Assembly (NCBI GenBank): GCA_021828085.1
Contig: JAKATE010000003.1
Location: forward strand, 1 to 33,999
Source of the DNA: Thermoplasmata archaeon
GTDB taxonomy: Archaea; Thermoplasmatota; Thermoplasmata; Lutacidiplasmatales; UBA184
Direction of reading: 5' to 3'
DNA: 33,999 bases
This document shows positions 3,320-29,861 of this stretch, in pieces. The position numbers and the translations under genes were made by a program. The stretch's first letter is position 1, and each line of letters begins with the position of its first letter. The notes under the pieces are model-generated. The model was not told the origin of the DNA. It saw only the letters and a list, made by a program, of their open reading frames with translations, and did not search any database.

Positions 3320-5716
3320 ATGGCCAAGAGCTCCTCAAGCTCCCGCCCGGCCGACGAGGGGAGCCTGGGCTCGCCGGCCCCCCGCGCAGGGTTCCGGCTG
3401 ATCGGGCGGCGGGTCCCGCTCGTCGACGGCCCGCTCAAGGTCACGGGCCGCGCGGAGTACACCGACGATCTCAAGCGGCCCGGGATGCTCGTGGCGAGGC
3501 TGCTCAAGTCGGTCCACGCGCACGCCCGCATCGCCTCCATCGATGTGACCGAGGCCCGCCGGCTCCCCGGGGTCAGCGCGGTCCTCACCGGCGAGCGCTT
3601 CCCCACGCCCTTCGGCGTCCTCCCCATGACCCACGACGAGACCGCCCTCGCCGTGGACAAGGTGCGCTTCTACGGGGAGTGGGTCGCCGCCGTGGCGGCC
3701 CGGGACGAGCGGACCTGCGAGGAGGCCTTCCGCCGCATCCGGGTGGAGTACGTCCCCCTCCCCAGCTACGACGATCCGGCGGTGAGCGAGAGGCCCGTGG
3801 CGGAGAAGATCCACCGTCGGGGCCTCCGGGACACGAACATCCAGAAGGAGGTCTTCCAGCACTTCGGGGATGTCCCGGCCGCCCTGCGCGACGCGTTCGC
3901 CAAGGCCGAGTTCCGCGGACGCTTCGCCGGCGTCACGCACGCCTTCACCGAGCCGCACGCCGTCCTCGCCGAGGCGACCCCGGACGGGCGCCTCACGGTC
4001 TGGTCCGCCACCCAGGTGCCGCACTACCTGCACCGGTCGCTCTCGGAGGTCCTGGGCCTCCCGATGCACCGGATCCGCGTCGTGAAACCCGAGGTCGGAG
4101 GAGGGTTCGGCGGGAAGTCCGACCCCTTCCCTCACGAGATCGCCTGCGCCGCGCTCGCGCTGGAGACCGGCCGGCCGGTCAAGCTCCTCCTGGACCGGGA
4201 GGAGGTCTTCTACGTCAACCACGGTCGGCACCCGACGACGAACCGGGTGGTGGTGGCCGCGGACGAGAAGGGCCGCTTCACCGCCCTCGACGTGGAGGCG
4301 CTCCTCGACGGGGGCGCCTTCAGCTCCTTCGGGGTCGTCACCACCTACTACAACGGCGTGCTCGCCATGGGTCCGTACCGGTTCGACGCCTTCCGGTACC
4401 ACGGGGTGCGGGCGTACACGAACCATCCCCCCTCCGGGGCCATGCGCGCCCACGGGGGTACGAACATCCGCTACTCCCTCGAGATGGCGGTGGACCTCCT
4501 GGCCGAGAAGCTCGGACGCGACCCCTTGGAGCTCCGCCTGGAGAACCTCCTCCCCCCCCACAGCCGGACCCTCAACGAGTTCCGCATCACGTCGAACGCC
4601 GCGCGCGACTGCCTGCTCGCCGCCCGGGCGCGCTCGGGATGGGAGAAGGACTTCCGGCGGCTCCCGCTCGGCGAGGGGATCGGGGTCGCCTGCGGCTTCT
4701 ACATCTCGGGGAGCAACTCCCCCATCCACTTCACCCCCCGCTTCCCGCAGTCCACGGTCCACCTCAAGGTCGACATGGACGGGGGGATCACCATCCACAG
4801 CGGGGCCGCGGACATCGGGCAGGGGTCGAAGACCCTCCTGGCCCAGATCGTCGCCGAGGTGGTGGGGGTACCTCTCGACCGGACGCGGGTGGCGGCGGTG
4901 GACAGCGACACGGCCCCCATCGACCTCGGGAGCTACTCCTCCCGGGTCACCTTCATGATGGGGAACGCCGCCCGCGACGCGGCGGAGAAGTTGCGCGCCC
5001 TCCTCCTGGGGGCCGCCGCCGAGATGCTCGGGAGACCCGTGGGAGCGCTCGCGGTGGGAGAGGACCGGTACTTCGTCGCCGAGGAGCCCACCGTCGGGGT
5101 GGACTACCTCGCGGCGCTCCACCGGGTCATGGAGCACCGGGGCGCGCTCACCGTCTCGGGAATGTACGAGACGTCGCCGCTGGGCGGGACGTTCAAGGGA
5201 GCGAAGGCCGGCACCGCGCCGGCGTACTCCTTCAGTGCCTACGTCAGCCGTGTCGGGGTGGACCTGGAGACCGGGGAGGTCACCGTCCGCAAGGTCTGGG
5301 CCGCCTTCGACTGCGGCCGGGCCCTCAATCCGCTCGCCGTGGAGGGACAGATCGAAGGGTCGATCCACATGGGGCTCGGCCAGATGCTCTCCGAGGCGAT
5401 GAGCTACCGGGGGGCGAGGCTGCTCAACCCCTCCCTTCTCGACTACAAGATCCTCGCCCCGCAGCAGATGCCCGAGGTGGAGTGCCTCCTGGTCGGCGGC
5501 GAGGACCCCGAGGGGCCCTTCGGGGCGAAGGAGGCCGGCGAGGGTCCGCTCATTCCCGTGCTCCCCTCCGTGGGCGCGGCGGTCCACGACGCCATCGGGC
5601 TGCGCTTCCCGGAGCTGCCGATCACCCCGGACCGGGTCTACCGCGCCCTCGAGAACGCCCGCGCCGCCGGGACGCTGGCCAAGCCCTCCCGGCCCCGCCC
5701 CCGGGCGGGGGAGTGA
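3320..5716 (+). CDS. Molybdopterin-binding catalytic subunit, xanthine dehydrogenase family (4-hydroxybenzoyl-CoA reductase alpha type)
   Basis: Catalytic subunit holding the molybdenum cofactor; 798 residues. An N-terminal a/b hammerhead domain (about 30-150, with GRAEYTDDLKRPGML) is followed by the cofactor-binding domains with GGGFGGKSDPF, the PPSGAMRAHGG segment, GAADIGQGSKT, and a C-terminal GAKEAGEGP segment whose Glu (738 or 741) fits the catalytic glutamate of the family. The form I CO dehydrogenase active-site cysteine motif (AYxCSFR) is absent, so it is not a canonical CoxL. Length and the companion FAD subunit point to the 4-hydroxybenzoyl-CoA reductase branch, which removes a ring hydroxyl in anaerobic aromatic degradation. 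The ATG at 3320 follows GGGAGG. Substrate is inferred. Confidence 0.88.
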   Translation: MAKSSSSSRPADEGSLGSPAPRAGFRLIGRRVPLVDGPLKVTGRAEYTDDLKRPGMLVARLLKSVHAHARIASIDVTEARRLPGVSAVLTGERFPTPFGVLPMTHDETALAVDKVRFYGEWVAAVAARDERTCEEAFRRIRVEYVPLPSYDDPAVSERPVAEKIHRRGLRDTNIQKEVFQHFGDVPAALRDAFAKAEFRGRFAGVTHAFTEPHAVLAEATPDGRLTVWSATQVPHYLHRSLSEVLGLPMHRIRVVKPEVGGGFGGKSDPFPHEIACAALALETGRPVKLLLDREEVFYVNHGRHPTTNRVVVAADEKGRFTALDVEALLDGGAFSSFGVVTTYYNGVLAMGPYRFDAFRYHGVRAYTNHPPSGAMRAHGGTNIRYSLEMAVDLLAEKLGRDPLELRLENLLPPHSRTLNEFRITSNAARDCLLAARARSGWEKDFRRLPLGEGIGVACGFYISGSNSPIHFTPRFPQSTVHLKVDMDGGITIHSGAADIGQGSKTLLAQIVAEVVGVPLDRTRVAAVDSDTAPIDLGSYSSRVTFMMGNAARDAAEKLRALLLGAAAEMLGRPVGALAVGEDRYFVAEEPTVGVDYLAALHRVMEHRGALTVSGMYETSPLGGTFKGAKAGTAPAYSFSAYVSRVGVDLETGEVTVRKVWAAFDCGRALNPLAVEGQIEGSIHMGLGQMLSEAMSYRGARLLNPSLLDYKILAPQQMPEVECLLVGGEDPEGPFGAKEAGEGPLIPVLPSVGAAVHDAIGLRFPELPITPDRVYRALENARAAGTLAKPSRPRPRAGE

Positions 5717-21002: not shown

Positions 21003-21025
21003 CGGACCGCGCTCCGGGGGGACAT

Positions 21026-21098
21026 AGCCCCGTGGTGTAGCGGACAAGCATACGGGCCTTTGGAGCCTGGGACAGCGGTTCGAATCCGCTCGGGGCTA
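21026..21098 (+). tRNA. trnQ-TTG: tRNA-Gln (anticodon TTG)
   Basis: Acceptor stem AGCCCCG/CGGGGCT with discriminator A, anticodon stem CGGGC/GCCTG with loop CTTTGGA (anticodon TTG), and T arm GCGG with TTCGAATCCGC. 73 nt, no intron, no encoded CCA. It marks the left border of the accessory stretch, but I find no duplicated tRNA 3' end further right. Confidence 0.95.
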
Positions 21099-21221
21099 AT
21101 GGTTCGCTCGGCGAACTGGAGTCGCTCGATCGCCTCGTTCCCATGGCCCTCCGAGGAGCCAGGGGAGGGCCACGAGTCGGGCGGCGATGAGTTTGCCTCG
21201 AAGACGGGATGCAGGACCGTC

Positions 21222-21306
21222 CCCTTCCCCTAAGTGACGAGCCGTTCTTCCTCCTTTTGAAGAACCTGCATTTTATCTCAGTAATACTCCCCGCTTAGGG
21301 GAAGGG
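21222..21306. repeat. 13-bp inverted repeat flanking the promoter of the AbiE-like operon
   Basis: Left arm CCCTTCCCCTAAG at 21222-21234 and right arm CTTAGGGGAAGGG at 21294-21306 are perfect reverse complements. The right arm abuts the TATA box at 21307-21312 and also contains half of a shorter palindrome, TCCCC-GCTTA-GGGGA at 21288-21302. The placement fits an operator for the winged-helix protein encoded next. Confidence 0.7.
21245..21264 (+). terminator. Possible terminator or small hairpin
   Basis: TTCTTC and GAAGAA are inverted repeats around a pyrimidine-rich CTCCTTTT. A T-rich stretch in such GC-rich DNA after tRNA-Gln could end its transcript. Weak call. Confidence 0.25.
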
Positions 21307-21312
21307 TTAAAT
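21307..21312 (+). promoter_or_regulatory. TATA box of the AbiE-like operon
   Basis: TTAAAT, about 27 nt before the GTG at 21336, predicting a leaderless transcript. The BRE position is filled by the right arm of the 13-bp inverted repeat, so a bound repressor would block TFB/TBP. Confidence 0.55.
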
Positions 21313-21335
21313 CGACCCGTTCTCCTCATCCCGAC

Positions 21336-21791
21336 GTGGAGATCGATCCCGCTCTCTCGGGTCTCGTCGGAAGCGAGACTCGCCTCCGCGTCCTGGCGGT
21401 CCTGGCGAACGCTCAGCGTCCGCTGACCGGCTACCGGGTGGCGAAGACCGGCGCGGTCTCCATTTCCAAAGCCTACCCGGAACTGGAGCGGCTCGCAGCA
21501 TCGAAACTCGTCCTCCGCTGCGGGAGGGGATGGGCGATCCACGATGAGGACGTGGCAGCCCTCCTCCGGAAGCGGGTCCGCATCGTCGATGGCGGGGATT
21601 GGTTCCGCGACAAGCCGAAGCGGGATGCCGAGGACCGCCGCTTCCTCTCTCGCTTGAAGAGTCTCCCGGCTCCCGATTGGAGTCAGATCGACCCCGACGC
21701 CATCCGATTCGACGTCGCCCGACGGAAGGAGAAGGACGAACTGCTCCTCCGCCACGGCATGAAGCCTAGCGTGACCCATGGACGAACGTGA
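21336..21791 (+). CDS. Winged-helix AbiEi-like antitoxin/regulator
   Basis: 151 residues. The N-terminal half has a winged-helix pattern: ETRLRVLAVLANAQRPLTGYRVAK, then VSISKAYPELERLAASKLV with a basic hairpin, RCGRGWAIHD. The C-terminal half is charged with no known motif. Followed by an overlapping nucleotidyltransferase gene (14 nt), it has the layout of AbiE-type two-gene modules, in which the winged-helix protein represses its own promoter and opposes the toxin. GTG at 21336 fits the TATA spacing. GC content and Arg codon use (more CGA and CGT) differ from neighbouring housekeeping genes, suggesting transfer. The AbiE assignment is by architecture, not by close similarity. Confidence 0.65.
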   Translation: MEIDPALSGLVGSETRLRVLAVLANAQRPLTGYRVAKTGAVSISKAYPELERLAASKLVLRCGRGWAIHDEDVAALLRKRVRIVDGGDWFRDKPKRDAEDRRFLSRLKSLPAPDWSQIDPDAIRFDVARRKEKDELLLRHGMKPSVTHGRT

Positions 21792-22326
21792 GTTCGACTC
21801 CCTCCTCCGCAAAGCGAAGACTCCGGACCGGCGAGTCGCATGGTTCGGTGCGCTCCTAGCGAAGGAGTCCGAAGTCCCGGTCGTCATCGTCGGTGGCTCC
21901 GCGATCCAGGTGTACACCGAGGGAGCGTATGTCTCCCACGACATCGATATCGTGGGTGACCGGTCGAAGCTCGCCGCGGTCCTCCGTCGGTGGGGCTTCC
22001 ATCGAGAGAAGGGTCGGTCGAGTCGAATCTACTGGGTCAAGGAACCGCTCGGGCTCGTGGACCTGGTCGGTGTCCGCATGAAGTCGGGCCTCTCCCCCCA
22101 GACGGTCCAGACCCCGTACGGGAGCGTCAATCTCGGGCCACCGGAGGACCTCATCACCCGCCGCCTCATGCGAGCCGGGGCCGAACAATCGACCGACCTG
22201 TTCCAAGAAGCCGTGCTGATCGCCCATCGATACAGGGACGTCCTCGACTGGGGGTACATCCGGGCGGACGCGCAGTACGAACGCGTCCTGCCGCTCTACG
22301 AGCAGTTGCGGAAGTTGGTCGCTTGA
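21778..22326 (+). CDS. AbiEii-like nucleotidyltransferase (putative toxin)
   Basis: 182 residues of the polymerase-beta nucleotidyltransferase type: VVIVGGSAIQVYTEGAYVSHDIDIV at about residues 35-59 (split by the family's loop) gives GGSA followed by DxD, the metal-binding pair. A third acidic site may be the Asp of GLVDLVGV. The C-terminal half has PPEDLITRRLMRAGAEQSTDLF, similar to the helical part of AbiEii/DUF6036-type proteins. It starts at ATG 21778 inside the antitoxin gene. In AbiE systems the toxin acts through nucleotide transfer and gives phage-induced growth arrest. No phage genes are seen nearby. Confidence 0.7.
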   Translation: MDEREFDSLLRKAKTPDRRVAWFGALLAKESEVPVVIVGGSAIQVYTEGAYVSHDIDIVGDRSKLAAVLRRWGFHREKGRSSRIYWVKEPLGLVDLVGVRMKSGLSPQTVQTPYGSVNLGPPEDLITRRLMRAGAEQSTDLFQEAVLIAHRYRDVLDWGYIRADAQYERVLPLYEQLRKLVA

Positions 22327-22830
22327 CGCATCGAGCCCATCGAAGACGCGTCGGCCCCGTGACACACCAGCGGGAGCGAGCCGGACCGCCCTTAGGATGC
22401 CTCGAGCCCCCTCGTTCCGGGACTAGGGGAGGGACCTTCGGCTGGAAAGTTGTCTCCACCCGTCTCCCCATCCCGAGGTCCTGGCCCTGGGGGCGGATGT
22501 GAACCAGGGTGCTAACTCGTTCGAAGGGGGGGGGACCGGCAGGAACTGTCGGCGAGCGATCGCGTTCCCACAGAGGCCCTCGTCGACCGTCAGCGTCGGT
22601 AGACTCTGGTCGCACGGGACCGAGATCCCCTCGGATCCCGGGACTCCGTCGAGCAAAGCGCCGGTCCACCCCCCGGACCCGACAGGGTCACGCTACCGCT
22701 CCGCGATCTCCGAGGAGAACGAACGAGAGGAATCCGGTTCCCTCGGTCGTAGGGCGCCTCGGAGACCACCCGTGGCCCCAGAGCCGGACCCCGCGAGCGC
22801 TCATGATCGACGCCGACGTCCCTCCGTCGC
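22327..22830. other. Gene-poor stretch
   Basis: About 500 bases after the nucleotidyltransferase gene without a convincing gene on either strand. Several open frames exist, but their translations are Arg/Pro/Ser/Gly-rich and low in hydrophobic residues, as expected for GC-rich noncoding frames. No tRNA, CRISPR or insertion sequence is seen. It could be the decayed remainder of an accessory insertion. Confidence 0.5.
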
Positions 22831-23007
22831 ATGCGCCCTCGTCTCGTCTTCTTTGACTGGGGAGGGACCCTCGTCCACCTGATCGGGGACCCGGTTTCCC
22901 GGGGGGAGATCCGCTCCACGTTCTCGCTCCCGATCGAGGAGCATCTCTCGGGCGCCTCCCTCGGGAAGGCAGACCGAGCTGCGTTTCAAGTGACGTCTTT
23001 CCGATGA
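22831..23007 (+). pseudogene. HAD-superfamily hydrolase N-terminal fragment
   Basis: A 58-codon frame, ATG to TGA, starts [20 protein letters not shown], which matches HAD motif I (hhhhDxDGTL) except that the second Asp is Gly11. After about 20 residues the match ends and the frame stops; no motif II, III or IV follows before the DUF1801 gene. I read it as a truncated gene remnant. A chance match cannot be excluded, but hydrophobic strand, Asp and Gly-Thr-Leu occur together in the right order. Confidence 0.45.
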
Positions 23008-23090
23008 TCCAAGACGCACGTCCGGGGCTGGACCCCACGGGGTTCAACGAAGCGCTCGGGGATCGAGCCCCCGCGCGCAAGGACAACGGC

Positions 23091-28706: not shown

Positions 28707-29861
28707 GGGGTGGTCGGCCCCGAGGGTCCGCTTCCGCCGGGCATCCACCGCCCGGAGGAACCCTTCGCCCAGGTCCGTATGGACCCGGAAGGCGAGCTCC
28801 CGGGCGGTCGTTCCCCGGGGGACCAGCAGCGCGTCCGGCAGCACCCGCCCCTTCCCGTCGGTCCACCGCGTCTCGTCCTCGACCGGGAAGACCACGATCC
28901 GCGAGAGCCCTTCGAAGACCAGCGCCTCGAGCGCCTGCTGCACCCCGGTGGAGCCCCAGACCGAGAGGAAACGCTCGACCTCCTCGAGGGCCTTGCGCTG
29001 CGCGGGCTTGAGCCCCTCCGGGTGGGAGTAGGTGAAGCGGGAATCCCCGGGGTGGTAGCGGATGAGCCCCGCCTGGTCGGCGCGGCGCAGCAGCAGTTCC
29101 ACGTCGGCCGAGGCGGGTGCGCAGGGGAGGGGAGCGAGCTCCTCCGCGACCCGGGCGGCCTCCTCCGGCCGGGAACGGTCGGCCTTGTTGGCGACGATCC
29201 GCCGCGGGCGGTTCGCCCGGAGGAGCTCGCGCGCGAGACGGACGAGGTCCGCCTCCGTCCAGCGCGTCGGGTGGGTGAGGTCGAGCGGGAGGTGCCGGAA
29301 GGCGGCGAGGACCTGCGTCGGCTTGAAGTTGAGGCCGGTGAGGCGGCTCGCGATGAGCTCCTCCACCTTCCCTTCGTTGAGCTCGAGGGAGCGCGCCGCC
29401 TTCTCCCACTGCCGGGAGAGGATCTCCCCCAGCCAGAGGACCATCTCCTCCTCGAGGAAGCGGACCGGCTCGGCCGGGTCGAATCGGCCGGGCTCCTCGA
29501 GATGCCCATCCGGGGCGGTGGCGCCGGTGATGTCGATGAGCTGGAGGTAGCCTTCCGCCTGGCGGAGGTCGTCGAGGAAGCGGTTGCCCAGCCCCTTGCC
29601 CTCGTGGGCTCCCGGGACGAGACCCGCCACGTCGACCAGTTCCACGGGCACCCAACGGGTCCCTTCCTGGCAAGGGGCGTTCCCCGGCGTGCAGGGATGT
29701 CCCAGGTCGGTGTGCGGGCAGGCCACCCGGACGTGGGCCACGCCCCGGTTGGGTTCCACGGTGGTGAAGGGATAGGGGGCCATGGGGACGTTGAGCATCG
29801 TGAGCGCGTTGAAGAGGGTCGATTTCCCCACGTTCGGCTGACCGACGAGCCCGACGTCCAT
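28665..29861 (-). CDS. YchF/Obg-type GTPase with TGS domain
   Basis: 398 residues, the usual length of archaeal YchF-like proteins. G1 is GQPNVGKSTLFNAL at about 7-20, G2/G3 regions include PYPFTTVEPN and VDVAGLVPGAHEGKG, and G4 is NKAD. NKAD suggests GTP preference, unlike bacterial YchF, which favours ATP. Helical middle domain, then a C-terminal TGS domain with DALLVPRGTTARELAFRVHTDLG. Acts on ribosomes or translation in related systems. The ATG at 29861 is 17 nt after the cobalamin adenosyltransferase stop. Confidence 0.92.
   Translation of the reverse strand: MDVGLVGQPNVGKSTLFNALTMLNVPMAPYPFTTVEPNRGVAHVRVACPHTDLGHPCTPGNAPCQEGTRWVPVELVDVAGLVPGAHEGKGLGNRFLDDLRQAEGYLQLIDITGATAPDGHLEEPGRFDPAEPVRFLEEEMVLWLGEILSRQWEKAARSLELNEGKVEELIASRLTGLNFKPTQVLAAFRHLPLDLTHPTRWTEADLVRLARELLRANRPRRIVANKADRSRPEEAARVAEELAPLPCAPASADVELLLRRADQAGLIRYHPGDSRFTYSHPEGLKPAQRKALEEVERFLSVWGSTGVQQALEALVFEGLSRIVVFPVEDETRWTDGKGRVLPDALLVPRGTTARELAFRVHTDLGEGFLRAVDARRKRTLGADHPLEPGDVVRVVSKR

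Follow-up and report, generated by a model that had tools for sequence, protein, structure and literature searches.

Type IV toxin–antitoxin systems are those in which the antitoxin protects without touching the toxin. In AbiE, one of the closest described systems, this role belongs to the repressor-antitoxin AbiEi, whose C-terminal domain carries the antitoxicity (PMC7319586), while the residues shown to be important in the toxin AbiEii are an arginine in motif II, a lysine and an arginine (K...R) in motif III and an aspartate in motif IV (PMC3985639). Another nucleotidyltransferase toxin, MenT, modifies tRNA (PMC10435456, PMC11375011). With regard to mobility, there are hitcher genetic elements devoid of their own recombinase, such as MITEs and CALINs (reviewed in PMC11389934). 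Here we analyse a two-gene locus in a window of archaeal DNA (the whole stretch of 33,999 nucleotides) that a preliminary description had taken for an AbiE-like, self-regulated module. The overall best explanation, to which we give a probability of about 0.68, is a compact toxin–antitoxin-like operon of a distinct archaeal family, which would be self-repressed, would have its nucleotidyltransferase (NTase) neutralised by a tail of its partner, and moves between genera.

The locus and its promoter

The module consists of a winged-helix (wHTH) gene whose end is overlapped over 14 nt by the start of the NTase open reading frame. Its features are the following:

21025..21099, + strand: tRNA-Gln (TTG), 3' end toward the module, presumed attachment site
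21100..21335, no strand: non-coding spacer, 59% GC, conserved across genera and within the transferred unit
21222..21234, no strand: left arm of a 13-bp inverted repeat, CCCTTCCCCTAAG, perfect
21283..21307, no strand: putative operator palindrome, AATACTCCCC-GCTTA-GGGGAAGGGT, abutting the TATA-like box
21294..21306, no strand: right arm of the 13-bp inverted repeat, CTTAGGGGAAGGG, perfect, overlapping the operator
21307..21313, + strand: TATA-like box, TTAAATC here and TTATATC in the aligned sisters, with its centre near -26 relative to the GTG start
21336..21791, + strand: wHTH protein, putative repressor and antitoxin, P0001, 151 aa, GTG start
21720..21788, + strand: C-terminal tail of the putative antitoxin, RRKEKDELLLRHGMKPSVTHGRT, kept even where the DNA-binding domain is swapped
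21778..22326, + strand: pol-beta-type NTase, putative toxin, P0002, 182 aa
21889..21948, + strand: catalytic signature VGGSA...HDID of the NTase, residues 38-57
22327..22410, no strand: zone where the DNA homology to the sister units ends (at 22384 for L031, at 22410 for L023)

The overlap of a wHTH gene with a GGSA...DIDIV NTase gene and the neighbouring tRNA-Gln, both noticed at the outset, are thus found, the motif reading VGGSA...HDIDIVG. Different codon use had also been claimed; the direction is right and the difference mild, with a GC3 of 0.79-0.81 in the two module genes against 0.85-0.95 in the 11 other open reading frames of the window taken as genes, and a GC content of 0.64-0.66 against 0.71 for the window. 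Profile searches identify P0001 as a TrmB/ArsR-like wHTH protein. Downstream of the module, near the expected right end of the unit, lies the truncated start of a HAD-like phosphatase (22832-23008). All the genomes compared below are drafts, probably MAGs.

The perfect 13-bp arms are present, the right one adjoining the TATA box, and we rejected their proposed role as the promoter operator on two grounds: the left arm is missing from the alignment of all three sister loci (L023, L031 and L035), and the repeat alone is not beyond chance, since a shuffled window should contain 0.375 pairs of perfect 13-bp arms within 100 bp and the real one contains two. The second lies at 29134-29146 / 29218-29230 and is consistent with chance. 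Local shuffles of the 260 bp around the repeat gave perfect 13-bp arms in only 8 of 3000 cases. The left arm is an inverted near-copy of the right half of the operator (17/20 nt, or 85%, when extended); it may be a second, private half-copy or a product of chance.

The conserved feature is the palindrome nested around the right arm, the smaller TCCCC (21288-21292) / GGGGA (21298-21302) element of the preliminary description. Its family form is AATACTCCCC-N5-GGGGAnTATT: it reads AATACTCCCC-ACTTA-GGGGAATATT in L031 (genome G095), is perfect in L035 (G102) as TACTCCCC-TATTA-GGGGAGTA, and is retained in a weaker form in L023 (JOPF257, the same contig as G119:C19). In other clades, the TATA box or start is marked by near-perfect palindromes of different sequence, for instance of the TATTAGTCA/TGACTAATA and GTATAC/GTATAATA types. 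A TATA box centred around -26 from the start codon has the spacing expected of a leaderless archaeal transcript. Scored locus by locus against shuffles, the palindromes are weak (15/51 below 0.05), and a covariation test was used instead, on 30 loci that share a CC-N5-GG core at about the same place. The centre was placed from this core and its position only, leaving the outer positions unused for placement, and the right halves were dealt among loci. Outer arm positions were complementary in 116 of 210 pairs against 73.7 +/- 6.4 after permutation, with a p of about 5e-5 that is the permutation floor and is optimistic, because the loci are related and the test was chosen after the sequences had been inspected. 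Arms changing in step are the trace that a dimeric repressor and its site would leave. From this covariation and from the position at the TATA box, we infer that the wHTH protein represses its own operon at 21283-21307, in line with the earlier idea of a self-regulated pair, on another site.

Family identity and proposed toxin–antitoxin logic

The possibility that the pair is a divergent AbiE type IV system, with an AbiEi repressor-antitoxin and an AbiEii toxin, has for it the gene order (wHTH, then NTase), the palindromic promoter sites and a profile-profile link of the NTase family to one AbiEii subfamily (E 8e-4). The AbiEii subfamilies, however, link to each other at 1e-5 to 7e-14, against 8e-4 to 0.3 to the NTase family here. 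A search of P0002 with the AbiEii profile (PF08843) gives no match at E<=1, and no AbiEi model matches the wHTH protein. The AbiEii residues of motifs II (arginine), III (lysine/arginine) and IV (aspartate) (PMC3985639) are not conserved; Y51 occupies the position of the motif II arginine and an invariant R129 lies near the motif III lysine. The catalytic spacing (V-G-G, 14 residues, D-I-D) can be set beside the hG[G/S]x15DhD of AbiEii, and this motif is general in pol-beta NTases. The antitoxin, with 151 aa, is without the AbiEi C-terminal domain, and the open reading frames in the AbiEi position at genuine AbiE loci mostly measure 235-290 aa. Finally, a genuine AbiEii exists on contig C223 of the same genome, as its sole match to PF08843, a profile that 33 of 61 genomes match above cut-off. 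We therefore consider AbiE membership, which the preliminary description had favoured, very improbable and rejected it: judged by its sequences, the pair resembles AbiE but is not AbiE. Nor do we claim for it the type IV-like label of the preliminary description, which depends on whether toxin and antitoxin touch.

The only family that P0002 matches is DUF6036 (PF19502), at 18.3 bits, below the gathering cut-off of 23.6. The DUF6036 check proposed at the outset thus leaves P0002 outside the family as defined and makes it a distant relative. Twelve of 18 NTase relatives match DUF6036 likewise below the cut-off (best E 0.0012), and the NTase is a branch of the DUF6036 neighbourhood, because the NTase profile (A2) also finds relatives that pass, namely L072 (29.9 bits against 23.6) and G433:C25, elsewhere in the phylum. 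No mention of DUF6036 was found in the literature searched. A PDB search with the NTase profile returned no NTase chain, hence no sequence match to any solved NTase, and AF2 models from two alignment rows were poor (pLDDT 44 and 52). At eight DUF6036 loci (L101, L103, L109, L111 and L115-L118), we observed a larger wHTH partner with a conserved C-terminal domain, ending for example in IAKQYGIR; the archaeal DUF6036 gene with its larger wHTH is possibly a fuller version of the same system. Some DUF6036 loci (L099, L113, L116 and L117) lie near a tRNA, and L116 has a second copy of the first 29 nt of tRNA-Lys at a distance of about 1.9 kb.

Several observations suggest that the two genes form a toxin–antitoxin-like pair, as had been proposed: intact copies are paired, decay is one-sided and the antitoxin is modular. 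Among intact NTase copies of the host family and of the closer relatives L056, L057 and L064, nearly all those whose contig extends far enough upstream are immediately preceded (-4 to +60 nt) by a partner open reading frame. The lone NTase copies of the host family, L015 and L018, are broken. In G032 (L076), about 446 bp of the NTase are missing relative to L050, between flanks 91% and 95% identical, and the wHTH frame is open; L075 keeps an intact wHTH gene and a perfect operator beside an NTase remnant. The dN/dS is 0.17-0.30 for the wHTH gene and 0.33 for the NTase, this latter value coming from a single valid pair (window against L023). We also noted in L017 an NTase where GRSA and NIN replace GGSA and DID, beside an intact wHTH gene, which from these changes is probably catalytically dead.

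The antitoxins of the family measure about 106-170 aa, the short forms about 106-112 aa, and end in a tail of pattern KDELL..HGM.PS (KD..L...G..S), whose KD pair is found in all but one listed row. In L059, a zinc ribbon stands in place of the winged helix and the tail is the only part common with the wHTH partners. Since it is retained where the DNA-binding domain was swapped, the tail is probably the neutralising part. By eye only, a palindrome (GGAACTCACTTATAGGTAAGTTCC, L059:1121-1190) is seen near a TATA-like box at the L059 antitoxin gene.

Alternatively, the wHTH protein may simply regulate an NTase whose target is a small molecule, an RNA or an invader that it modifies, as a single-step defence or tailoring enzyme, outside any toxin–antitoxin logic. 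Some wHTH genes do stand alone, and related NTases of other Thermoplasmata families (L070, L072, L073 and L074) are solo proteins fused to an N-terminal zinc ribbon (MKCPxCxYxWxxRKxxPKxCPRCKRRLD), of the same kind as that of the L059 antitoxin; having no wHTH partner, these fusions indicate that the NTase need not always be a toxin. We hold this alternative to be unlikely, in view of the intact NTase copies that come with their partner in the host family, of the losses that keep the antitoxin and break the NTase, and of a tail conserved independently of the DNA-binding domain.

Spread between genomes and association with tRNA genes

Of the 103 host-family genomes, 40 have the NTase, several of them in two or three copies, broken ones included, and it is sparse in the rest of the class and phylum; the genes are thus present in some relatives only, and not fixed as core genes. 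On a 49-row NTase tree, genus labels change 18 times against 19.2 when shuffled and are therefore not more clustered than by chance. The module with its spacer is 86.6% identical in DNA to G095 and 83.9% to G119, both of another genus. The core DNA of the window shares 69-72% identity with the corresponding regions of these two genomes (74-75% within the genus), and the eIF2-alpha protein 62-63%. A module at 84-87% against core genes at 69-72% shows horizontal transfer between genera, in agreement with the description of a horizontally moving pair. No relatives were found in plasmids, phages or viral contigs.

Each of the 13 tRNAs detected near a module has its 3' end toward it, 11 of them within 240 bp, and the tRNAs are of the Gln, Lys, Leu, Arg and Ala types; independent cases are fewer than 13, because some loci are related, and the majority of module loci have no adjacent tRNA. 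L023 carries a second copy of the final 19 nt of its tRNA-Gln at 3353-3371, and the two copies delimit a unit of 1,722 bp, made of the two genes and about 0.7 kb of other DNA, with no integrase. Once joined, the L023 flanks are uninterrupted in G092 (84% identity) and, for a shorter length, in G117, G113 and G098 (79%); in the alignment, these empty sites have only one tRNA 3' end, after which comes the L023 flank. Given these tRNA-Gln repeats and uninterrupted empty sites, a segment of 1,722 bp has been either gained or lost, precisely from one repeat to the other. Similarly, 19 nt of tRNA-Arg are repeated in L052 and 14 nt of tRNA-Lys in L011 and L032, three units in which the two genes leave no space for an integrase, and 18 internal nt are repeated in L031. 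For the tRNA-Lys and tRNA-Arg units, empty sites were not found, the matches stopping at or just past the tRNA.

In the window, the DNA homology to the sister loci of another genus begins at tRNA-Gln, whose 3'-most 28 nt are identical and whose 5' part has diverged, as would be expected if the unit brought the 3' end with it. Downstream of the module, we found no right tRNA-3'-end repeat (attR), no match exceeding 11 bp. The window copy is a relative of the JOPF257 unit at tRNA-Gln with an unrecognisable right end.

Two accounts of this mobility can be weighed. The pair could be leftover cargo of larger tRNA-integrated islands, the repeats being scars of decayed elements, an account compatible with the best explanation. 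The missing right repeat of the window copy, the many loci without a nearby tRNA and the rightmost 370 bp, which are not alike between the L023 and L031 units, all speak for it; the similar small units at different tRNAs (about 1.3 kb at tRNA-Lys, 1.5 kb at tRNA-Arg and 1.7 kb at tRNA-Gln) and the empty sites, which are exact and have only one tRNA 3' end, speak against it. We rate it a little short of an even chance. It is also conceivable, though we say so tentatively, that the wHTH/NTase operon is itself the whole mobile unit, of 1.3-1.7 kb, which would insert at tRNA 3' ends via a helper integrase and be held by its own toxin–antitoxin pair, with a portable tail of about 20 residues on exchangeable DNA-binding domains.

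Proposed mechanism and comparison with known systems

Under the best explanation, that of a self-repressed toxin–antitoxin-like operon, a dimer of the wHTH protein would bind the palindrome by the TATA box, block TBP/TFB and shut down the operon. The short tail, as its conservation across the domain swap suggests, would probably dock on the NTase and hold it inactive. Once freed by loss or titration of the antitoxin, the NTase could, by analogy with MenT and AbiEii, transfer nucleotides to an essential RNA and stop growth. The operon spreads between genera. At least one well-resolved copy, that of JOPF257/G119, is an insert of 1,722 bp at the tRNA-Gln 3' end, and an integrase acting in trans might mobilise it. 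If true, this would add an undescribed NTase toxin–antitoxin family in a little-studied archaeal group, and a clean case of a toxin–antitoxin-like pair crossing genera at tRNA genes in a unit devoid of integrase. Such a case would be relevant to how tiny modules travel without an obvious vehicle. Moreover, the natural swap of a winged helix for a zinc ribbon, with the tail kept, allows a direct test of the neutralising part.

With AbiE, the pair shares a bicistronic arrangement of a wHTH repressor followed by a pol-beta NTase, promoter palindromes and a patchy, mobile distribution. It differs in having no sequence match to either AbiE protein family and in missing the AbiEii-specific motifs, in carrying a short tail where AbiEi has an antitoxic C-terminal domain, and in its promoter, where a single local palindrome adjoins the TATA box, while AbiE has two 23-bp repeats separated by 3 bp (PMC7319586). 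With MenA/MenT, it may share the logic of an NTase toxin, although the NTase here matches no solved NTase in sequence. The archaeal DUF6036 genes sampled also come after a wHTH gene; in comparison, our NTase forms its own branch and its partner is much smaller, the resemblance being confined to the helix-turn-helix. As for hitcher elements, the likeness is that of a small unit without mobility genes, which would need a helper enzyme, whereas the cargo here is a toxin–antitoxin-like operon at archaeal tRNA 3' ends.
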